A model generated the notes under the pieces. It made no database searches. It saw nothing but the letters and a program-made list of their open reading frames with translations, and was not told the DNA's origin. This document shows positions 29,819-52,831 of a stretch of DNA of 64,000 nt, one piece after another; position 1 is the first letter of the stretch; every line of letters starts with the position of its first letter. The DNA is from Aurantiochytrium sp. KH105 (taxonomy: Eukaryota; Sar; Bigyra; Thraustochytrida; Thraustochytriidae), in contig BGKB01000025.1 in NCBI GenBank assembly GCA_003116975.1, forward strand, positions 186,001-250,000. Direction: 5' to 3'. Both the position numbers and the translations under genes were made by a program.

Positions 29819-31666
29819 ATGATCTCGAGCACATTTTACAATCATGTGTTGCGTCCGAACGCGGCGTTGCGGGCGCAAAAGGCTGCGGGAACCTCAATGT
29901 ATGCTTGGTCTTTTTCTTTCTTTCTTTCTTTCGCTTTCTTTGCTCGCTCTCGGCTCGCTCCTATTCCCAAATGGTCGCAAATGGTGACAACAACATCACA
30001 ATGGTTCCGACGTAGAGGCGTCGCGCCGGTCGTGGTGGTAGTGGTGGCCGGCCTGCTGACGGTTGTGTGGTCAACGTGGTCGGATGCGCGGCGTCTGCAG
30101 ACGTGGCTCACTGCCGGCTTGCCTCAAGATCCCCTCGAGACGGTAGTTAACGTCGTGGACGATGACCCTGAAGGTCTTTTCGGTGATCACGACGCAGCAG
30201 CACAGGCGGCGCAGGCAACGCGGGCGACACGACACATTCTTGTTATCATTGCTGACGACTGGCGTGGAACGCCTGTGCCAGGGGCACGCATGCCACACGT
30301 ATCAGCCCTTGAAGGAGATGCCATGACTGTGTCTTTTACTGCGGCGTACACGCAGTATCCACTGTGCAATCCATCGCGGGCGTCAATGCTGTCGGGCCGA
30401 CGACCCGAAGGCACGGGAATATTTGATCTTGACGCGCGCGTTAACCAACAAGGGGTAAATGGCATCGCGTCATTGCCAGCGTTTCTTCGGTTGCATGGTT
30501 GGCGCACCGTCGCTGCCGGCAAAGTCTTCCATGGCGAAACGGACCCACACGCTTGGGATCACATCGCCGCACCTTCTGTGGAACGGCCATTCCAAGCAAC
30601 CCTGTGCTCTCGTGCAGCATACAAGCGTCACGCAAGCAAGCCATATCGGGTCAACGGTCAGCCGATGCTGCAAGATGTCATGTGCAAGGTCGCTGCAGCA
30701 AACGAAACACTTGACATGCAGTTTGCGCTCGCTGCTATGAACGTTCTGAGGACTCACCTTGACAAACGCCCGGCGCAACCTCTGTTTCTTGCTCTTGGTC
30801 TGGTGAGTACTCACCTTCCTTGGATGACTGCGAAAGAGTTTTGGCCTTCTCAAGAAGCGACGGAGGCTCTTCTCGCGAGCAAAACCGGCGACAGGGATGT
30901 TCCTCTTCACTGGCGGGAAGCACCTGCAGAGGAACGATCAGATCATGTCTCATTTGAAACGAGCCTCGTTCGTGGAAAGCCTTTCACATACCGAACGGTG
31001 GACGCCCAGACCCGCATCGCTTTTCGACTTGGCTATCGTGCAGCGATTGCGCAATTGGATGCAGCTGTGGGCCACGTTCTCGATGAGCTCACTCGTCTTG
31101 GCATTTCGCAGCAGACACTTGTCGTCTTGACGTCCGACCACGGCTTTGCGCTCGGGGAGGACGGACACTATGGCAAGCGTGCATTGAATGAGGTGAGTAC
31201 GCGAGTTCCGCTCATTGTACGTTGCCCATGGCGGCATGATCACTTTCATCGCGTGGGTAATACATATAAGCTGCCTGTGGAATCTCTTGGTCTGTATCGA
31301 AGCGTCGCGAATTTGGTGGGACTTGGCGATGCCGTCCCCAAGGAGATTGAAGGAGTTCCATGGTGGAGCTCTTTGGTGGCGACCTCGCAAGTGGTGCGAT
31401 GCAAGGAGCCCATCTGTCCAAATGACATGAACCCAATTGCAACGCATGTGAGCATGCTGGGCACGAGCATTCGCAAGGGTGACCAGAGACTGACGCAATG
31501 GAGACAAGTTCGTGCGAGAAAGTCTGAGACGTCGGACGCCGTGCATTTCGATGTAAATTGCACTGCACCAGGCATTCGGTATACTTACACGGTTGGCGTA
31601 GACGGCGCGCAGGCCGCGAGTTCGCCGGGAGACTTTCGAGGAAATGACGAGTGTGGGCCTTTATGA
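29819..31666 (+). CDS. Iduronate-2-sulfatase-like sulfatase with N-terminal membrane anchor
   Basis: The product is 615 residues from the first ATG, or 561 from the Met at 29981. The latter places a signal anchor (VVVVVVAGLLTVV) just after a basic RRR. Type I sulfatases hydrolyse sulfate esters, usually in lysosomes, Golgi or outside the cell. The metal-binding start VIIADDWRG, the core motif LCNPSRASMLSGRRP with Cys183 (site of formylglycine formation) and the second metal site TSDHGFALGEDGHYGK are all present. The segments GKVFHGETDPHAWD and ASLPAFLRLHGWRT follow the iduronate-2-sulfatase subfamily. The substrate cannot be told from sequence and may be an algal-type sulfated polysaccharide. 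The start lies only about 40 bp after the WDR17 stop, and the gene is convergent with the TMEM135-like gene. Confidence 0.85.
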   Translation: MISSTFYNHVLRPNAALRAQKAAGTSMYAWSFSFFLSFAFFARSRLAPIPKWSQMVTTTSQWFRRRGVAPVVVVVVAGLLTVVWSTWSDARRLQTWLTAGLPQDPLETVVNVVDDDPEGLFGDHDAAAQAAQATRATRHILVIIADDWRGTPVPGARMPHVSALEGDAMTVSFTAAYTQYPLCNPSRASMLSGRRPEGTGIFDLDARVNQQGVNGIASLPAFLRLHGWRTVAAGKVFHGETDPHAWDHIAAPSVERPFQATLCSRAAYKRHASKPYRVNGQPMLQDVMCKVAAANETLDMQFALAAMNVLRTHLDKRPAQPLFLALGLVSTHLPWMTAKEFWPSQEATEALLASKTGDRDVPLHWREAPAEERSDHVSFETSLVRGKPFTYRTVDAQTRIAFRLGYRAAIAQLDAAVGHVLDELTRLGISQQTLVVLTSDHGFALGEDGHYGKRALNEVSTRVPLIVRCPWRHDHFHRVGNTYKLPVESLGLYRSVANLVGLGDAVPKEIEGVPWWSSLVATSQVVRCKEPICPNDMNPIATHVSMLGTSIRKGDQRLTQWRQVRARKSETSDAVHFDVNCTAPGIRYTYTVGVDGAQAASSPGDFRGNDECGPL

Positions 31667-35799: not shown

Positions 35800-36241
35800 A
35801 AGAGTACCTTTTCGCTGCGTTTCTTCTCTTTCATGCCTCTCTGCATGCATCCATGCAGTCATTCATGTAAGGTGCGTGACCGCCTAGCTCTCCTTTCGAC
35901 CTTGCTTCTTCTTTCTTCTCTATCCATTACCACTTTTCTCCTGTAGACGAACGACGAATTCGCGAACCGCGACCCAAACCATTCCAATCACCCCACTCCA
36001 TCCACCCCCACTCCATCTCATCTCATTCCATTTCATTCCATCAAAAACAATCAATCAATTTGCAAAACAGCTTTTAATCATCACAGTCACAGCCCATCAC
36101 GATACTGCGCCAAACACGACAAAAGTAGCCATGTTAGATGTGATGGTCCCGGTGGTGGCGGCTCAAATAGATAGATTAGTGACCAAGACAAAGCGCATTC
36201 AAGTTGGAGGCGATCCTTGCGCTGCAAGCGGCCGAGGAGCC
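35800..36241. other. PSMA6 3' flank and upstream region of the monooxygenase
   Basis: About 440 bp. The first half is pyrimidine-rich (CTTCTTCTTTCTTC, then CCACTCCATC repeats at 35985-36040). No other gene was seen. In-frame ATGs at 36131 and 36242 compete as the start of the following gene. Confidence 0.5.
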
Positions 36242-38563
36242 ATGCGGTGCGCCGGGCGCATCGAATTGTCCTCAATCGTTCGCCGACCTGCGCGAGCATG
36301 GAGCCCTCGAGGCGGGCGTGGTGGCCTCGCTGCTGACGCCGCATGGTGGAGGCTCAGGCGGGCGAGTCCAGCATTTCGCCAGGCGTCCCTGTCCCCGCCC
36401 ATCGCTGCGCAGACAGCAAGCCTGACGACAAAAGCACAGTCGCCTTCGCAGTTGCGGTCGCCGTCGCCGTCGCAATCGCAGTCGCAACCAGCGATACCGA
36501 CAGAGGTTCCTGTGCTTATTGCAGGAGCAGGGCCGGTGGGGACGCTTACGTCTCTCTTGCTGTCCAAGCACGGCGTGCAGTCTCTTGTCGTGGAGCAAGG
36601 CGAAGCGGGCGGGGACGGCGCAGGCGTGTCTGGAACGAAACTCGACCAAAACGACGATGAACATCATGCGTTGCCGCATCCACGGGCCCATGTAATGCAT
36701 ACGCGCGCCATGGAGGTGCTGCGTCAGCTGGGTCTTGAAGAAACGGTGTGGGGTCATGTGCCGCCTTCCGAGCATTGGCGTCGCTTTCGCTACTGCACCT
36801 CGCTCTTGGGCGATGATCTCGCTGTCATGGACCACTTTCGCACCGAAGAGTTTAAACTCTTGGGTTCGTTAAGCCCATGCCGTGTTGCGCAGCTTTCGCA
36901 GCCGATCCTTGAAAACATCCTCAGCGAGGCCGCAAACGCCGCAGCCGAAAGTTCTGGCGCAAAAGTGCTGACAGGCCATATTGTCCAAGATCTTTCACCT
37001 CGCAGCGAGGATGGCGGGGTGAATGTCACGATTTGCCCGACGAACGGTGGGCCGCCAACCACCATCGCGGCCCAATACGTCGTCGGCGCGGACGGAACCC
37101 GAAGCGCCGTGCGCCGCGCGCTAGGTATCACATCCCGAGGCGAGCACGACATGGAGTCCTTTGCCAGCATTCATTTCACAAGTCGCGAGCTTGGCAAAAG
37201 GCTGGCCAAGGATCGGCGGGGCGCCATGCTGTCCTTTGTGTTCAGCCCAGACGTACTTGGAGTGGTTGTTTCGCACGATTTGCGTCGGGGCGACTGGGTC
37301 ATCCATGCGCCCTTTTTCCCGCCGGCACAATCTCTCGAGGACATCTGCGGCACCGAAGAGGCTTGCATTGAAATCATCCGTCAGTGTTGTGCTCCGATGT
37401 CAACGCACAAAGGCGCAGAGGACGATCCTCTACGTGACCTAGAACTCCACTCCGTGCGGGCCTGGGGCATGCACGCCACTTGCGCCACTTCTTTTGCCGG
37501 CATGGGTAATCGTGTTTTCCTCGCTGGAGATGCCGCACACCAGTTTCCCCCCTCCGGTGGCTTTGGTGTTAATGCCGGTCTCGTCGATGCACATAATCTC
37601 GCCTGGAAGCTCGCGTACACGCTGCAAGGAAAAGCAGGCCCCAGCCTTCTCGCTTCCTACGACCTTGAGCGGCGCCCCGTCATCGAGGATGCATTGAGTG
37701 TTGCCGTCGACAACTACCGTCGAGGCCTCCTTCCAGCTCGCGCCATGGGCCTCGAGCGAAATCTTGTCGCCACGGCCGTATCAATGCTTGGGCAAGGTGG
37801 CGCCACCCTTCCATGGGCCGGTGACCTCGTGAGTGGAATGCTTACAGTCGGCAAGCAGCATTTGCGATCCCCCGCGCTCGTCAAGTCACGCGTTAAGCGC
37901 GTGGTCGAGGAGGACCAGGACGCTCTGCCGCTCCTCTTCCCACGCACAGACAAGGGTTTTCGATACTTTCCGGAGGCTGGCGGCGTCGCACGGCCTGCAA
38001 CTTCTCCGACATCCACGCCTCGGGATCTGAGTCCCAGTGAGTTCTGGCTCAAGCCTCACTTGAAAAGAGGCACTCAGAAAGATATTGCGCTCGGGACTTC
38101 CCCCGGTCAGGCCCTCCCCCACGCTTGGATTCTAGAACGCGACTCCAACTTGCGACTTTCCACTATTGATATCATCAGCGCACAGCTTCCCGCATACACG
38201 CTTCTTTACGCAATGCCATCGATTTGGCGCCCTGCCTTGGAAACGCTTCACCGAAAGTATGGAAAGGCGAAAACAGATCAAGTTATTCGTGGCGTTGCGC
38301 TTGTGCCTCTACAATTACCTGACGGTACCACCGGAGACACCGGCGATTTCAAAGAAGCTGTATTTGTGTACGAGGCTAACTCGCCCTGGGAGAAGCTCCG
38401 TGAGATTAGTGAGCGTGGCGCTCTCCTGGTGCGCCCGGATGGCCACATTGCGGCTCAATTGGCGGGCCCGTCCTCCTCTACCCCGGCAGCGTCTTCTCGA
38501 GATCTCTCGCATGACATACTCAAAGTTTTAGAGGAGCTCGAACTTCGCATTAACTGTAATTGA
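36242..38563 (+). CDS. FAD-dependent aromatic-ring-type monooxygenase
   Basis: The product is 773 residues from the ATG at 36242; 37 more if the ATG at 36131 is used. It has the class A flavoprotein hydroxylase layout. The dinucleotide motif VLIAGAGPVGTLTSLLLSKHG lies near residue 90, the DG motif VVGADGTRSAVRRALG near 285, and the GD motif FLAGDAAHQFPPSGGFGVNAG near 425. The C-terminal 150 residues form the thioredoxin-like domain seen in phenol-hydroxylase relatives, ending GALLVRPDGHIAAQLAG. Such enzymes use NAD(P)H and O2 to hydroxylate aromatic rings. The N-terminus is Arg/Ala-rich without acidic residues (RRPARAWSPRGGRGG), so mitochondrial import is possible. The substrate is unknown, and no pathway neighbours help. 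Confidence 0.85.
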   Translation: MRCAGRIELSSIVRRPARAWSPRGGRGGLAADAAWWRLRRASPAFRQASLSPPIAAQTASLTTKAQSPSQLRSPSPSQSQSQPAIPTEVPVLIAGAGPVGTLTSLLLSKHGVQSLVVEQGEAGGDGAGVSGTKLDQNDDEHHALPHPRAHVMHTRAMEVLRQLGLEETVWGHVPPSEHWRRFRYCTSLLGDDLAVMDHFRTEEFKLLGSLSPCRVAQLSQPILENILSEAANAAAESSGAKVLTGHIVQDLSPRSEDGGVNVTICPTNGGPPTTIAAQYVVGADGTRSAVRRALGITSRGEHDMESFASIHFTSRELGKRLAKDRRGAMLSFVFSPDVLGVVVSHDLRRGDWVIHAPFFPPAQSLEDICGTEEACIEIIRQCCAPMSTHKGAEDDPLRDLELHSVRAWGMHATCATSFAGMGNRVFLAGDAAHQFPPSGGFGVNAGLVDAHNLAWKLAYTLQGKAGPSLLASYDLERRPVIEDALSVAVDNYRRGLLPARAMGLERNLVATAVSMLGQGGATLPWAGDLVSGMLTVGKQHLRSPALVKSRVKRVVEEDQDALPLLFPRTDKGFRYFPEAGGVARPATSPTSTPRDLSPSEFWLKPHLKRGTQKDIALGTSPGQALPHAWILERDSNLRLSTIDIISAQLPAYTLLYAMPSIWRPALETLHRKYGKAKTDQVIRGVALVPLQLPDGTTGDTGDFKEAVFVYEANSPWEKLREISERGALLVRPDGHIAAQLAGPSSSTPAASSRDLSHDILKVLEELELRINCN

Positions 38564-39128
38564 ACTTTACTTGTGGTAGGCCTAGTAAGGCTCTCGTACG
38601 GAACATCTTGGGGTGAAAGTCACGGAAAGAAAGAGCGTGAAAAAAATCAATCTCTTTTTTATCCGTTTGGTTTCAGGCTCGGAACTTCGACCTTTAAACT
38701 GGCACTGCACTGCGGCCTGCACTGTCCTGTCCTGCACTGGACGAACTAAGGCGAGCGTTCCACCGTCTTGGACTGACGCCCAGGGGACCAGACCCCGTCA
38801 CGGCGTAAGGGATAAGACAAAGTGCGACGGGAATCGTTTGCAGTACGAACAAAGGAGGCCGGCCAACTTGGCTAGTATTTTAATCGGCCTAGGCCTGCTA
38901 GACCTCGATATTATCGCAATCATATATAGCAGCGAAGTGGCGGATGCCAGCACTGGTGAAAAGGTGCTCACTCACACGAAAGCAAGACAGAACCCGCTTC
39001 CTCGTCCGAGGAGCAAACAGACTATCTCCCCTAGGCTGCGACGCAACGCAGAGAAAAGCACGCGGAAGGGCCGCGTTGGGCGTCCCGCCCACGCCGGCTG
39101 GACCTCGAGTGCCGCACGCTCGTTGACC
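38564..39128. other. Upstream region of EGF-7TM paralogue A
   Basis: About 565 bp after the monooxygenase stop. The frame of paralogue A stays open back to 38613, but the translation has no similarity to the other paralogues, so I treat it as non-coding. TAGGCCTA-like palindromes occur at about 38578 and 38889. Confidence 0.5.
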
Positions 39129-40280
39129 ATGGTGACTGATTGCATTGTCCATTGCGAAGAGGCCAATCGTGGAACATGCATCGAGAGCGCCATCAACAGC
39201 TCTTTCTATCATGGTGATACATGCTTGTGTGACAATGCATGGACACGTGACACGACCAACGTCTGGATTGAATCCGCAAGGTGTCCATTGTCTGTACTCT
39301 TTGCAAGAGTATTCTTCTGCGTCTGCTCTGCTGGGTCTGGAACGCTGTTTCTGCTCAGTATTTGGCTTTTGTACCAATTTGGGAGAAACCATCGGTCGAT
39401 AGCGATTCCTTTGCGCCTGTGTATTGCATCTCTCGCGCACCTCGGCTATGACGTAATCCGCTTATTCTCGCTGCAGACGTCACTCGTCACAACTCTTCTT
39501 TATTTGGCGTTCAACGTCGCTCTTCTCGAACTTTTGAGAGCATTTGCATTGCAAACTGCTGCTTCGGTCGTAGAAATTCTACGAAAGTACCCCAAGAAGC
39601 ACGAGGCTCTTCTTTCCAACTATGCAATGGTTATTTTATGGAGTACAAGCTCAATGCTCTTGTCCATGTTTGTTCAGGTCGGAGCGCGCATGTTTGGACA
39701 TTGGAGATTCGCCGCTGGGGACATTGACGGATTCAATGCAGGCAGTATGTTTGCGCTATTAGGCATTTCCCTCGGCCTGCTCGGTTTTTTCCCGGCAATC
39801 TTCCTCTTTTCAAGAAAGCTTCATCAGCTGCTCAATCCAGACACCAATGTCTCGGGTCAGAGTCTTACCACTGCATCGCTGGCATCTTTGAGTTTCAAGC
39901 TTGATGGATTGCTCTCATGTCTACAGCTCGTCAGGAACATTGTGACGTTCCTTGGCTCGGTGTCAATTCTAATTAATTTCGCGGGGCTGGCGTTATATAC
40001 CCTTGGCCATGATGCCGCGGCCTACATTTGGGTCGTCTTTTGGATCGCGCAAGGCGGCACGGTCTTCGGATTGGCGGCACTTTGGAGATTCCAAAGCAAA
40101 CTCATCAGGGCCTCTGTGGTTCCCGATCCCACACACGGTTCGACAGCCCTTGCCTTTGAGGGGACGACTACGAATTCAAAACGTCAAGACAGTTTTCAAG
40201 CTCTCGGACCCATTGTCGTCTCACACAGCACTTCCTCATCATTGAAACTAATTTCGGACCAGGGGTCCCAGGCTCCCTAA
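39129..40280 (+). CDS. EGF-like, seven-helix membrane protein, paralogue A
   Basis: The product is 383 residues from an ATG in good context (ACCATGG) at 39129, the start that aligns with the other two copies. Residues 5-52 hold six cysteines spaced C-x3-C-x7-C-x14-C-x-C-x17-C, the order of one EGF module, with the conserved WTRD. Seven hydrophobic segments follow, including TM2 with HLGYDVIRLF and TM7 with YIWVVFWIAQGGT. The C-terminal 55 residues are hydrophilic and Ser/Thr-rich. With no cleavable signal peptide, TM1 probably acts as a reverse anchor, putting the EGF module outside. It resembles a receptor layout but has no recognised GPCR motif. It is the most diverged of the three tandem copies and lacks the C-terminal SVL-x-H of copies B and C. 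Confidence 0.78.
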   Translation: MVTDCIVHCEEANRGTCIESAINSSFYHGDTCLCDNAWTRDTTNVWIESARCPLSVLFARVFFCVCSAGSGTLFLLSIWLLYQFGRNHRSIAIPLRLCIASLAHLGYDVIRLFSLQTSLVTTLLYLAFNVALLELLRAFALQTAASVVEILRKYPKKHEALLSNYAMVILWSTSSMLLSMFVQVGARMFGHWRFAAGDIDGFNAGSMFALLGISLGLLGFFPAIFLFSRKLHQLLNPDTNVSGQSLTTASLASLSFKLDGLLSCLQLVRNIVTFLGSVSILINFAGLALYTLGHDAAAYIWVVFWIAQGGTVFGLAALWRFQSKLIRASVVPDPTHGSTALAFEGTTTNSKRQDSFQALGPIVVSHSTSSSLKLISDQGSQAP

Positions 40281-40813
40281 TCCAACCCTCACCCCCCCCC
40301 CCCAAAAAAAATCAAAATTAAAAGAAAACTTTTTATAGCCGTTTCGTTGTAGACTTGTTAGTCACTGCTGTGGCACTGGCACTGCGGAAGTTCGTTGAAT
40401 CTGAAGCTAGCTCACTTCTTTGAACTCGAATGCGATGCCGTTCGGGCCCATGTGACTCTCTGTGGCCGTGACTGAGACTCGGAGCCTCTGAGTCTGAGCT
40501 TCTCAAGATGAGCATGAATGCATGGATGTGCAAAGAAGCAACGACATTGGTTTGCTCCACTCTGAGTCAGTCGATGTGCCGAAAATTGAGCGTATCGGTC
40601 CCACGTTCCCCTCGTTTGTGCACAAAAAAGCTAGCGAGCCATTCGGGTGTCGGTTCAAAGTGTACTTTTTGAAGCGATTGTAACCGAGTGTGCACTCATT
40701 CGTTCATCTTCTGCGCCCCTATCACAACATTTGGGCAAACAATCAAAGGCAAACTCCGTCTGCTCATAGTGGCGGCGTGCGCCTGCAGGCCAGGTGACGG
40801 CGGTCACGGGAGC
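40281..40813. other. Spacer between paralogues A and B
   Basis: About 530 bp. A C10/A8 homopolymer junction lies just after the A stop (about 40290-40310). The B frame is open back to an ATG at 40688, which would add 42 residues including a short hydrophobic LRLLIVAACAC. No other gene was seen. Confidence 0.5.
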
Positions 40814-41881
40814 ATGGGCGACCACCATCTGCACGGGGCCATAGCTGCGAACTGCACAGAAACTTGCGAAGTGTCAGGGCACGGGACATGTTTCCAAGAA
40901 GAAGGCTCCTCACTCTTTTCGTGCGTGTGTGACAGTGGCTGGACGCGTGATGACATGCTTATTGTCAATAGTCAGCCAAGCTGCCCGGTTCCACTTGCAG
41001 TACCGCTAACTATCTCTAGCGCGCTGCTCATCGGGAGCTGTTACGTCGCCGTTTGGGCCATCCGTATGGCAATATCAAACCCGTCGACGCGTAGATTTAG
41101 TCTGCAGATTCTCGTGTCCGCTTTGATCCATGCAAGCTATGACGCCACAAAGTTATTCACCTTTGCACCATCGGCATGGTCAACCCTAGGCTTCGCCAGC
41201 GTGACGATGATGTCATTGCACATGACACGGGTCATTATACGCGAGCTAGCAAGCGAAGCATATCATCTCCTTGAAAGAGATCCCCAAAGACTTAAGCCTC
41301 TCATTCTCGTGCGGTCTCGAATCATGGCGTGGACAAATAGTGCCGTCGATTCGACTTTGTTTCTTGTTTTGATCTCGAGGCTTTATTGTGTTGCAGCAAT
41401 CCAGATCGAAGATTGGGATGCATTTAATTACAACACAGTCAGTTCTGCAGGTATTGCATGCATTGCGTACGTTGTCGTGCTTGGAACTTTACAGGTTTTT
41501 TTTGTACAGATGAAAGTCATTGTTTCCTTTAAGAGTAGCGTCCCGAATAGTAAGAATGAGGACTTCCTGCTCGATAGCCTTGAGGATTTTCGCAACACTA
41601 TACTCTTTGTGGCCACGTTTTTATTGATGACCTCGGCATTTCTTTACACGGTGTACATTTTAAAGAGTCAAGAGAGCGACTACGCCTGGATTGTATTTCA
41701 GATGGCGCAGATCGGTACTTTTGTCGACGTGTGGATGTTACGTTCCTTCGCCGAAAGATTGACCACATTCAAGGAAACCAGGCCATTGAAACCTACAGCC
41801 TCTGTTCCATCCAAGGTCAAGCAAAGCCCAAATAATGCGCTCAAAATATCCGACACAACAACTTCTGTGCTGCAACATTGA
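40814..41881 (+). CDS. EGF-like, seven-helix membrane protein, paralogue B
   Basis: The product is 355 residues from the ATG at 40814. Cysteines 14, 18, 26, 37, 39 and 57 follow C-x3-C-x7-C-x10-C-x-C-x17-C, with EVSGHGTC and GWTRDD shared with paralogue C. Asn13 is in an NCT sequon, fitting an extracellular N-terminus. Seven hydrophobic helices follow from residue 58 to about 320. TM2 carries HASYDATKLF, and the last carries YAWIVFQMAQIGT. The cytosolic tail ends SVLQH, nearly the same as SVLRH in paralogue C. An alternative upstream ATG at 40688 cannot be excluded. Function is unknown; a surface sensor or adhesion receptor is the natural guess from topology. Confidence 0.8.
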   Translation: MGDHHLHGAIAANCTETCEVSGHGTCFQEEGSSLFSCVCDSGWTRDDMLIVNSQPSCPVPLAVPLTISSALLIGSCYVAVWAIRMAISNPSTRRFSLQILVSALIHASYDATKLFTFAPSAWSTLGFASVTMMSLHMTRVIIRELASEAYHLLERDPQRLKPLILVRSRIMAWTNSAVDSTLFLVLISRLYCVAAIQIEDWDAFNYNTVSSAGIACIAYVVVLGTLQVFFVQMKVIVSFKSSVPNSKNEDFLLDSLEDFRNTILFVATFLLMTSAFLYTVYILKSQESDYAWIVFQMAQIGTFVDVWMLRSFAERLTTFKETRPLKPTASVPSKVKQSPNNALKISDTTTSVLQH

Positions 41882-42582
41882 GCTGCAATGCTGGTGGTTG
41901 AGTAGTAAACGCATAATCCACAATGCGATGAAAGTGATAATCAGAAACGAGGTTCAGGCCTACTTTTTTAGGAAGTAAACAAGCCTGGCTGGTTAAACTC
42001 GTGGAGCAGAAGGAAAGAAGAAAGAATCTTTCAGATGGAACAAAAAAAACTCAGGGAAAAGCCGTTGGCTTGCTCAGGGACTCACTGTCAGACGAACAAA
42101 CCCGGTCCCGCGCGTCAGTCAGTGGGCGACGGGCAAAGTGGCGGCGGGCGACCGACCATAGGTGTATTAGACGGGGACAGAGACTCGCTTCGGCCCGGAC
42201 TCTCATAGATGCTAGCAGACAGGTGATTGGTGTCTTGAAAGGGACCGTTGAATTCATGGTTGGTGGCGGCATTTGAAGTGTACAGTTACTACTATTCGAC
42301 TACTACTATTTACTGTTAGGAATTATAAGGTCCGAGCGCCAGCAAGCCAGGAAGCAGAATGATCACGGCTAGAGCCAGAGTCTTGACAGTGTCGGATGCA
42401 GAGAGGGAGAAAGAGAGAGAGAGAGAGAGAAAGAAGAAGGAGACCGCCAAACTCGTCATAGGCCTCGTTGCACCCGCCTTCACTCAGCCCATGGAAGAAG
42501 AATAAGGTTGCTGCATCGCGAGCAGACGTGATACTCATCGTTGCAGAAAAGCGAAAACACTGCGGCGAGAGCAGCTGACAAG
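41882..42582. other. Spacer between paralogues B and C
   Basis: About 700 bp. It contains TACTACTATT repeats (42287-42315) and a GA microsatellite (42411-42430). Small open frames have no recognisable content. An ATG at 42541 is in frame with paralogue C but adds only 14 residues. Confidence 0.5.
42411..42430. repeat. (GA)n microsatellite
   Basis: About ten GA units, within a purine-rich block between paralogues B and C. Confidence 0.85.
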
Positions 42583-43617
42583 ATGGTAGACGTCCACTTT
42601 CACGGCAACCTCATCGAGAATTGCTCAGAAGCATGTGAGGTCTCGGGACACGGAACTTGCGTTTGGCATAACGTGTCGGAGCAATTCATTTGCGCTTGCA
42701 ATGGTCAATGGACGCGTGACGACATGCACTTTATCAATCCTCCTCTGGCATGCCCTGTTCCCATGTTGTTTCAGCAAGTCTTTTCGTGCGTGCACCTTCT
42801 CGGGAGTTGCTACATAGCGGCATGGGCAATCCGTTTCGCGCGAGCGTTTCCGAGAGATCGAAAGCTCGGTATTATTTTCTTCGTGTCCGCAGTTTCTCAC
42901 GCAGTATATGACATTATAAGGATCGTCACCGTCAATGAATCTGCAATCGGCGCGATATCATTTGCGTTTATATGTATATCATGCGTCAACTGCGCGCGAA
43001 CAGTCATCCTCGAACTCGCACAAGAAGCGCACGAGCTCGTACACGATAATGCAGAGCAGCTCGAGCACTTTGTCCTTGTTTATTCGAGGTTAGCTGCTTG
43101 GGTAGACTCCGTGGTGGACACTGTCAGCTCACTTATGGTCGTCGCGAGACTGTTCGGCACCAGCGCGCTGAGTAGTGACGATATTCTGGGCTATAATCAA
43201 AACACAAGGATCAACATTTGGCTGCTAACCGTCGCCGAAATTGTTCTGGCTGTTTCCTTCCAGGTATTCCTCTCACGTATACGTATGATTCTCAGCATGA
43301 ACAATGGTGCCTCGGCGACATCGGAGACGGGGACGTTCCTTCTTCGAAGTATCAAAAAATATCGAGACCTTATGGTCGTTGCAGCGGGCAATATATGCGT
43401 CTGCTCCACTATTCTTGGATATCGATACAAACAATCCAATGAAAATCTCGAGAACGTGTGGATACTTTTTGCGTACGTGCAAGCAAGATCTCTCGCGCAG
43501 TTGACACTTTGGCGTGGTCCCATTGTCGAGTTGGCAGAGCTTCGGAGCAAAAAAGATCCAGCTTCGACCGGATTCGGTCGAATCACGTCCGGACACTTTT
43601 CGGTGTTACGGCATTGA
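42583..43617 (+). CDS. EGF-like, seven-helix membrane protein, paralogue C
   Basis: The product is 344 residues from the ATG at 42583. The six cysteines sit at exactly the positions seen in paralogue B (14, 18, 26, 37, 39, 57), with EVSGHGTC and QWTRDDM. Sequons NCS and NVS lie in this ectodomain. Seven hydrophobic helices follow, with TM2 motif HAVYDIIRIV and TM7 beginning NVWILFAYVQ. The C-terminus ends SVLRH. The last 12 bp overlap the 3' end of the coiled-coil gene on the other strand. B and C are clearly closer to each other than to A, consistent with stepwise tandem duplication. The family is not recognised. Confidence 0.8.
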   Translation: MVDVHFHGNLIENCSEACEVSGHGTCVWHNVSEQFICACNGQWTRDDMHFINPPLACPVPMLFQQVFSCVHLLGSCYIAAWAIRFARAFPRDRKLGIIFFVSAVSHAVYDIIRIVTVNESAIGAISFAFICISCVNCARTVILELAQEAHELVHDNAEQLEHFVLVYSRLAAWVDSVVDTVSSLMVVARLFGTSALSSDDILGYNQNTRINIWLLTVAEIVLAVSFQVFLSRIRMILSMNNGASATSETGTFLLRSIKKYRDLMVVAAGNICVCSTILGYRYKQSNENLENVWILFAYVQARSLAQLTLWRGPIVELAELRSKKDPASTGFGRITSGHFSVLRH

Positions 43618-44679
43618 ACATGTCTCTTCTCTGCGCCGTGACGAGGAATCAGGGTTTGCCCTGCCCACGGTGTGCTTTCTCTGGCTCATGTAATTTGCTT
43701 TTGGCACATCTTTTGCACCGGGTATTTGAACGTAGGCTTCTCTCCAACGTTCATCATCCCGATACTCACCGTGCCGTTTCGGGACTTGAGAGTTCACATT
43801 GTTTGTTGATTGCACGACGCCCTGAAGCCCGATTTTCATCTCAACGACAGAGAGCATGCTCGCTTGAGCCTGACCACGAAAGTGGTCAACCATAAGTTCA
43901 AGTTCGTCCTTTTCCGATTTGAGCTGGGCAATTTGAAGTTCGAATGATATCCGCTGTTCTTCGAGGGTGCGCCGCAACTCACTTTCGAGACGCTCACGTC
44001 GGGCTGTCTCCCGGACGAGGTCGTCCTTGAGCCGGGTCTCGAGAGCAGCAGCTGCAGCTGCTCGATCCTCTTCGCGCGCAAGGTGCCGCCGCAGCTCACC
44101 TGCCTGAGCCTGAGCCTCTGCAACGCTTGCTTCGGCACGTTCTGCGCGCTGACGCAACGCGTCTTGCGCTTCACGGAATTGTTTTCTTTCCGAGGCGAAG
44201 AGCTTGGAGGACTTTTGCGCTTGATCGCGGGCCATGGCGGCTTCTCTTCGGAACTTACAAATTTGAGTGTACATGGCAATCTTTTCCCTCGGTAGCTTGT
44301 GTAAACTATTGTACATTTGAGCATGTTCATACGTGTCTTTTTCCAGGATCGCCTGTTTGTATCGCTTCACTGCTTCGGACCGCACAGACATTGCCTCCTG
44401 TAAGAGACTGTCGATTGCGTCTGCTGTGCGAAGCGCCTCTGCGTCGAGCATCGGACCTTCTTCAGCTTCTTCTGCTTCTTTTTCTTCTCCTAGTACTTGC
44501 TGTTGTAGTTCTTGTTGTCGTTGTTCTTTTTCTTTGTCTTCATATCGATGAGTTCCCTCGAGTCGCTCATCAGCAATAAGTCCTGGTGATCTCACGGTTT
44601 GGGAGCTTTCTTGGGGCATCAATGCCGGGGTAGGTCCACGTGGCGGCGTAGAGTCTTCTGCTGCATGTCCGGCTTTCAT
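43606..44679 (-). CDS. Coiled-coil protein of unknown function
   Basis: The product is 357 residues. Residues 1-80 are Pro/Ser then Gln/Glu-rich. Residues about 85-285 form a long coiled coil rich in Ala, Glu, Arg and Gln (for example EAQDALRQRAERAEASVAEA and LESELRRTLEEQRISFELQI). The basic tail contains RWREAYVQIPG. It lacks signals for a membrane or an enzyme. Such proteins are often cytoskeletal or basal-body components, but nothing specific supports that here. The stop codon lies inside the coding end of paralogue C, so the two mRNAs must overlap. Confidence 0.7.
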   Translation of the reverse strand: MKAGHAAEDSTPPRGPTPALMPQESSQTVRSPGLIADERLEGTHRYEDKEKEQRQQELQQQVLGEEKEAEEAEEGPMLDAEALRTADAIDSLLQEAMSVRSEAVKRYKQAILEKDTYEHAQMYNSLHKLPREKIAMYTQICKFRREAAMARDQAQKSSKLFASERKQFREAQDALRQRAERAEASVAEAQAQAGELRRHLAREEDRAAAAAALETRLKDDLVRETARRERLESELRRTLEEQRISFELQIAQLKSEKDELELMVDHFRGQAQASMLSVVEMKIGLQGVVQSTNNVNSQVPKRHGEYRDDERWREAYVQIPGAKDVPKANYMSQRKHTVGRANPDSSSRRREETCSMP

Positions 44680-51628: not shown

Positions 51629-52831
51629 TCACCAATTGTGGCTACGTACCTCCCAGAGTCCGGGCCCTGTGGCCAAGAGAGCAAATACCAAGGCACCGCA
51701 CATGGACAAATACACGATGGCCCAACCCGTTTCGGACTCGTGAAAGCTTTCATTTATGTTCGCGGCAGACTGCGCAGACACCGCCGCTGGCGCTTGCGCA
51801 GTAGACACGGGACTGGGGCCAGAACCGGACGCTGCAGCAACGGCACTGCTTTTGGCCACCGTGGCGACGTGTGATGCACTCTGTCCTTGATAGTAGGTGC
51901 CATCGTCAGAGTGCTGACCGGCCCAGTTGGCTGAGTCAATCATTTCAAGAATGATACCGACCAAACCTGAGAGTGACAAGACGACGAGCATGGTGACGAG
52001 CTTGGTCTGAAACTGGAACTTGCCAAGCGCCTTGTGCATTGCATGTTCGTAGTCGGGCGCATGCAAAAAACGAAACTCGCCTTCGTCATCCTCATCAAAA
52101 CTCGAGGATAACTTGCCCTTGCTTTGCGTGGTGACGTCCGCTTCGCTCACCGCCTCTTGCGAGCGTCGTGAGAGAACCCCAGGTTCAGAGGGAGTTTCAT
52201 TCGAGTCTAATTTAGCAACAAACTCGGCCGTCTGAAAGCTTGCGGGGAAGAGGGACGGTGGCGTGAGCGACTGGCGGCGCAACAAGATGATCATGGCGGT
52301 CCAGATGGAAAAGAAGGTGCTGAGCACGGCGAGTAACAGCATGGGGACCTCAAAGAGGATGAGCGCAGCCACAGGCGGCTTGTACATGAAGCAAAAGAGC
52401 GTACGCTGCTCAAATTCGCCCACAATGGCGCTCAGGAGCGTAGGCCCGAGGGCCATTCCTGCAGCAAGTGCTGCAGCCCGCCGCACGCCACAAACCTGCG
52501 ACTCGAGCCGCACGCCTCGATAGAGGAGTGACCACGTTGACATCGCAAGCAAGAGGAGCAAAATGCCACTCATGAGCGTAAAGAACAAGAGGACAACGCC
52601 ATGGCAGGTGCACCACGCTCGGGAGACTGTGTCAGTGATTACTGTAATGACCGTGAAGAGGAGAACGCCACTCAAGGCCAAGAGGACACCAATAAAATTA
52701 ACGAGCATTGCCAGCAGCGGATCATCGCTGCTGCCCACGCCCGCGAGCCGCTGCGTCGCCGCCATCCAGGTCACGAGCAGCAACACTGTGCTCGTCAGCA
52801 GCAGCGTTAGCGAGTTCCACGTGGGGTTCAT
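51629..52831 (-). CDS. Orphan seven-helix membrane protein, GPCR-like layout
   Basis: The product is 400 residues. Hydrophobic helices lie at about 6-25, 38-66, 77-103, 119-137, 153-184, 276-298 and 371-393. A 90-residue charged loop after helix 5 and a Ser/Ala-rich loop after helix 6 separate them. Helix 3 (HGVVLLFFTLMSGILLLLLA then STWSLLY) has a pattern reminiscent of Frizzled/cAMP-receptor helix 3. A Cys before helix 3 (WCTC) and one before helix 5 (LFCF) could form the usual GPCR disulphide. This is suggestive only. It is not similar to the EGF-7TM trio at 39-43 kb and lacks an EGF module. The first ATG is used. Confidence 0.65.
   Translation of the reverse strand: MNPTWNSLTLLLTSTVLLLVTWMAATQRLAGVGSSDDPLLAMLVNFIGVLLALSGVLLFTVITVITDTVSRAWCTCHGVVLLFFTLMSGILLLLLAMSTWSLLYRGVRLESQVCGVRRAAALAAGMALGPTLLSAIVGEFEQRTLFCFMYKPPVAALILFEVPMLLLAVLSTFFSIWTAMIILLRRQSLTPPSLFPASFQTAEFVAKLDSNETPSEPGVLSRRSQEAVSEADVTTQSKGKLSSSFDEDDEGEFRFLHAPDYEHAMHKALGKFQFQTKLVTMLVVLSLSGLVGIILEMIDSANWAGQHSDDGTYYQGQSASHVATVAKSSAVAAASGSGPSPVSTAQAPAAVSAQSAANINESFHESETGWAIVYLSMCGALVFALLATGPGLWEVRSHNW

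Follow-up and report, generated by a model that had tools for sequence, protein, structure and literature searches.

What kind of membrane protein is encoded by three consecutive genes of the thraustochytrid Aurantiochytrium sp. KH105 that share a six-cysteine module placed ahead of seven hydrophobic helices, and does this layout point to receptors? The genes, here called A, B, and C, lie on the forward strand at positions 39129 to 43617 of a 64,000-nucleotide stretch of contig BGKB01000025.1 (assembly GCA_003116975.1, contig positions 186,001 to 250,000), which we refer to as the window; their span opens with the earliest ATG in the frame of A and closes with the stop codon of C. An initial annotation had presented them as a tandem trio of EGF-like/seven-helix proteins, apparently a new receptor-like family. 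Judged by sequence comparison, A, B, and C are true paralogues that form one tandem family, and we tentatively read them, at slightly short of an even chance, as an orphan family of cell-surface seven-transmembrane (7TM) receptors with an outside N terminus, a role proposed from their layout.

Three paralogous genes in tandem

Copy A (39129..40280, 383 amino acids), copy B (40814..41881, 355 amino acids), and copy C (42583..43617, 344 amino acids) are all on the plus strand and have the same predicted order of parts, that is, the six-cysteine module (EGF-like in B) followed by seven helices, with the tails SVLQH in B and SVLRH in C. All three have an ATG start, a stop codon, and a length divisible by three, and no internal stops were seen in their reading frames. 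By BLASTP, B and C are 33% identical (E 5e-69), and A is 21% identical to both B (E 8e-24) and C (E 1e-21), with homology extending over most of the protein length. In all six comparisons, the real score was higher than that of each of 300 shuffles preserving the composition of the N-terminal part, the helices, and the loops separately (z of 29 to 71 for whole proteins and 17 to 54 from the membrane part onward), which bears out the annotated trio of related, consecutive, same-strand genes. A tblastn search of the window returned no fourth copy (best other match, E 0.16).

The duplications behind A, B, and C are old. Across 343 aligned codons of B and C, agreement is 47% at the first codon position, 62% at the second, and 33% at the third. 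In an ungapped search (at least 16 nucleotides), no long repeat at the DNA level connects the three genes: the longest families, of 53 and 29 nucleotides, both fall within the module coding sequence, and the seven further families are short two-copy matches.

The trio also stands out in composition, occupying the three lowest-G+C 2-kb bins of the 32 in the window (38001-44000; G+C of 0.492 to 0.516). Its codon usage correlates poorly with that of other genes, at 0.23 to 0.31, and 13 of the 14 others reach 0.47 to 0.94, short genes being noisier in this measure. The last 12 bases of C (43606-43617) are shared with the 3' end of a convergent open reading frame on the opposite strand (43606-44679), which appears by eye to encode a coiled-coil-like protein and has a codon usage correlation of 0.15.

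An atypical six-cysteine module and seven predicted helices

The module was scanned at 39129..39293 in A (Cys 5, 9, 17, 32, 34, and 52), 40814..40990 in B, and 42583..42759 in C (Cys 14, 18, 26, 37, 39, and 57 in both), all on the plus strand. As annotated, the spacing C-x3-C-x7-C-x(10 or 14)-C-x-C-x17-C and the WTRD motif after the fifth cysteine are found in all three copies. The EGF label fared less well, since all Pfam EGF scores are sub-threshold, with no EGF family reaching its curated cut-off for any of the three modules. The module of B comes closest, with EGF_Teneurin (E 7.2e-5, 23.2 bits against a cut-off of 24.3) and then EGF_2 (E 7e-4, 20.3 bits against 22.1), other EGF families also scoring lower than EGF_Teneurin; A matches EGF_Teneurin at E 0.11, below the cut-off, and for C Pfam lists no EGF family, only WAK_assoc (E 0.0076, also below the cut-off). 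The PROSITE EGF patterns PS00022 and PS01186 match none of the modules, whose C5-x17-C6 loop is longer than those patterns allow. Among PDB sequences, copy B has one match, to Notch1 (E 5.3), and a profile of the three copies matches five chains of M130 (CD163; E 0.23 to 1.5), in both cases over the module. The six cysteines and the C-x-C thus stand, and the module may, weakly, be called EGF-like but atypical, on the strength of sub-threshold Pfam scores that come mainly from B.

At a hydropathy cut-off of 1.0, B and C each have seven hydrophobic segments and A has eight; the extra segment of A (residues 250-268, Kyte-Doolittle [KD] value 1.23, between helices 5 and 6) is weak and is taken as not membrane-spanning. 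Seven long helices follow the module in both AlphaFold2 models (B and a trimmed A), in agreement with the annotated helix number. By hand-set helix limits, 61 to 64 residues precede helix 1. The charge and sequon counts that follow use limits set by hand from hydropathy, for which helices 1 and 4 were moved in C and the eighth segment of A was excluded. Because Lys and Arg concentrate on one side, with inside/outside counts of 18/6 in A, 21/2 in B, and 18/4 in C, the N terminus is placed outside, and hydropathy and charge together fit a predicted topology of seven helices with an external N terminus. Loops and ends contain six N-glycosylation sequons, of which five would be external by this topology, four of these in the N-terminal part. 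No signal peptide is apparent by eye, no predictor having been applied, and the C-terminal tail behind the helices is basic.

Some sequence features within this frame are common to the copies. The helix-2 motif, annotated as H-x3-YD, is in fact H-x2-YD (H104/Y107/D108 in A and H106/Y109/D110 in B). Helix 7 is related across the copies, as the annotation had it, with W, F, and Q invariant, and B and C do share the tail SVLxH-stop, which A is without. When helix columns are classed by the residue of B, with I, L, V, M, F, A, and C counted as hydrophobic, 9 of the 47 columns with a non-hydrophobic residue are invariant, compared to 3 of the 86 others (Fisher p 0.004, uncorrected); classed by any of the three residues, the plain counts of invariant columns are 5/23 for strongly polar, 4/59 for aromatic or small, and 3/51 for apolar columns. 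Of the invariant non-hydrophobic residues, G and S belong to helix 1, H, Y, and D to helix 2, and W and Q to helix 7, while helices 3 and 4 have one R each, that of helix 4 near its outer end; together they suggest, at the level of sequence, a working helix bundle.

The annotation had further proposed that divergence of the tandem copies reflects ligand or partner diversification. The conservation pattern runs the other way: between B and C, the module is identical at 29/57 positions compared to 77/254 for the 7TM part (p 0.005; p 0.049 without the shared cysteines). The figures for A and B are 17/48 and 53/262 (p 0.025 with the cysteines and p 0.42 without those shared), and for A and C the advantage of the module falls short of significance (p 0.079; p 0.67 without the shared cysteines). 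Since the module is at least as conserved as the 7TM part, the reverse of what was predicted, diversification of ligands via the ectodomain is not supported.

Receptor, hydrolase relative, or another membrane protein

Pfam lists no 7TM family up to E 10 for the whole proteins or the isolated membrane parts of A, B, and C, a result made correspondingly weaker by HMMER filters that discard most matches above about E 0.1; what C does match below threshold (DUF1029, DUF6097, and Yippee-Mis18) is unrelated. Up to the same E value, the PDB matches of the three-copy profile include no chain of a G protein-coupled receptor (GPCR) or of CREST. NCBIfam and PHROGs gave one match each, at chance level (E 0.094 and 0.3, respectively). 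No relatives were confirmed in prokaryotic, viral, and plasmid sequence collections (the plasmids with copy B as sole query), where pattern matches in genome contigs (35 and 12) and viral contigs (41, 8, and 3) stayed unconfirmed. We saw no report of the family in the literature, which is weak evidence, coming mostly from titles and the openings of abstracts. A lead to THH1/TOM1/TOM3 (from PMC12716839) was rejected: hhalign gave the trio a probability of 0.3% against one member, a single sequence that Pfam assigns to PF06454 at E 1e-144, with two other membrane proteins of the window as negative controls at 0.1% each, and PF06454 is not listed for the trio.

The receptor reading draws on the layout. 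Like classical GPCRs, the trio would have seven helices with the N terminus outside, basic cytoplasmic loops and tail, and an N-tail without an apparent signal peptide. With adhesion GPCRs of the EGF-TM7 kind, it has in common an EGF-like part and seven helices; it differs in that the stretch before helix 1 is too short to accommodate a GAIN/GPS region, for which there is no Pfam match. Structure prediction adds little. AlphaFold2 gave low-confidence models for full-length B (mean predicted local distance difference test [pLDDT] 48, predicted TM-score [pTM] 0.34) and for trimmed A (pLDDT 51, pTM 0.46), both with only three sequences as input. With the B model, Foldseek gave 899 PDB matches up to E 10; of the best 50, GPCRs account for 43 (including 4 engineered consensus olfactory receptors) and designed GPCR-like folds for 2. 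A viral fold library returned nothing meaningful for the A model (query TM-scores of at most 0.30).

Several observations weigh against receptors. The best Foldseek match of B has E 8.5e-3 and none reaches 1e-3 or below; the best 50 of the 658 matches of the A model include only 11 GPCRs, and no query TM-score among these 50 exceeds 0.25. The two low-confidence models disagree, so the fold matches carry little weight, and of the annotated receptor-like character it is the layout that holds. DRY/ERY and NPxxY, the class A motifs that we tested, occur in none of the three copies, as the annotation had said of GPCR motifs, and there is no invariant cysteine outside the module, so that the class A pair between helix 3 and the second outer loop is missing too. 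The sixth sequon (A residue 240) falls on the predicted inside. Finally, when A is compared to B or C, conservation is lowest in helices 5 and 6 (0 to 1 of 19 residues), which is unexpected in a receptor family.

The same lack of conservation in helices 5 and 6 would suit a membrane protein that is not a receptor but serves in adhesion, as a scaffold, or as a transport accessory, with a conserved cap binding a constant partner over a loosely constrained helix bundle. The better conservation of the module than of the 7TM part, in B-C and, with the cysteines counted, in A-B, also speaks for such a protein; this advantage, however, is not significant in A-C or, once the shared cysteines are left out, in either pair that includes A, and the non-hydrophobic residues that stay invariant in five of the helices (1, 2, 3, 4, and 7) suggest that the bundle is functional. 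We regard this explanation as unlikely, albeit one to be reckoned with. Less credit goes to the possibility that the trio belongs to a known eukaryotic 7TM receptor class but has diverged so strongly as to lie beyond the reach of profiles built from three sequences. The GPCR-like layout and the weak match of the B model to GPCR folds would agree with it, and there is a precedent in RSF, which the account in PMC12716839 describes as orphan 7TM proteins of eukaryotes, rhodophytes included. The trio, likewise made up of orphan seven-helix proteins, nevertheless bears an N-terminal module, whereas that account gives RSF no additional domain, and the RSF motif NxLQxxMNxL, placed there between helices 6 and 7, is found in none of the copies. 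The hhalign comparison with one THH1/TOM1/TOM3 sequence also speaks against a known class, and we judge such a membership improbable. GPCRs are called rare in plants, with red algae counted among plants, in PMC5784254.

A degenerate relative of CREST is a further candidate: it would have the TMEM8/PGAP6 layout, have lost its metal site, and be a pseudo-enzyme. The conserved Asp of CREST sits in helix 3, and none of the copies has it there; nor does any copy have HxxxH in helix 7, the sole HxxxH (C residue 150) lying in the loop that joins helices 3 and 4. The two long cytoplasmic loops of the trio also differ from CREST, where such loops are shorter. In favor of such a relationship, helix 2 of the trio contains a His, which in B and C is part of an SxxxH (residue 102) in the same place as in CREST, although the Ser is missing in A, which has AxxxH. 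The order of parts, an EGF-like six-cysteine module (here atypical) and then seven helices in all three copies, recalls TMEM8 proteins, for which PMC3146951 describes a divergent six-cysteine EGF domain and a C-terminal transmembrane region. Loss of residues also has a precedent inside CREST, as TMEM8c is without the conserved Ser and Asp (PMC3146951). Set against these likenesses, no CREST family or chain appeared in the Pfam and PDB profile searches described above, and no CREST chain is among the best 50 of 899 (B) or the best 50 of 658 (A) Foldseek matches. We therefore consider a CREST origin quite improbable.

The start of gene A, the surrounding genes, and a possible mechanism

Ahead of its first ATG, A has a further 180 codons of open reading frame (38589-39128, plus strand) with no in-frame ATG, a situation met in 3 of 5000 mononucleotide shuffles. 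This upstream frame has one hydrophobic stretch (KD 2.36) and an intermediate codon score, and represents either a missed upstream exon or chance. The first ATG was retained as the start because neither a start codon nor homology supports an extension; if the extension were real, A could gain another helix. Directly upstream of the trio lies a gene for an FAD-dependent hydroxylase-like protein (36131-38563, plus strand; FAD_binding_3, E 1.3e-64), and farther upstream one for a sulfatase family protein (29819-31666, plus strand; E 3.1e-29). On the minus strand, 51629-52831 encodes a hydrophobic protein of 400 amino acids with no Pfam match at E 0.001 and no profile similarity to the trio. The genes of the window are eukaryotic in kind, including RPN2, IPO5-like, and TMEM135-like proteins, in a genome that is compact, intron-poor, and of about 55% G+C.

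Translocation of an N-tail by helix 1 occurs in many GPCRs. If A, B, and C are receptors, their short acidic N-tail, with no signal peptide apparent, could be translocated by helix 1 in this manner, and the N-terminal part would form a disulfide-bonded, EGF-like cap over the outer mouth of the seven-helix bundle. The functional core would then comprise H-x2-YD of helix 2, the R residues of helix 3 and of the outer end of helix 4, and the W, F, and Q of helix 7. The signal would be relayed by the tail and the two longer cytoplasmic loops, and SVLxH would serve B and C for sorting or docking. In its fullest form, the proposal is that these surface 7TM receptors, each with an EGF-like cap close to the membrane, make up a class of their own that has no sequence relationship to any known receptor class and that old tandem duplications expanded in this eukaryotic lineage, with signal specificity residing in the diverged helices and the cap constant; taken as a whole, we consider it distinctly unlikely, though worth stating.

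Were the trio instead a degenerate CREST relative, it would offer an example of an intramembrane hydrolase layout turning non-catalytic. On the receptor reading, EGF-capped 7TM sensors distinct from the classes known in animals and fungi would be peculiar to this lineage, and the three tandem copies would provide a natural set for separating the roles of the cap and the helices.

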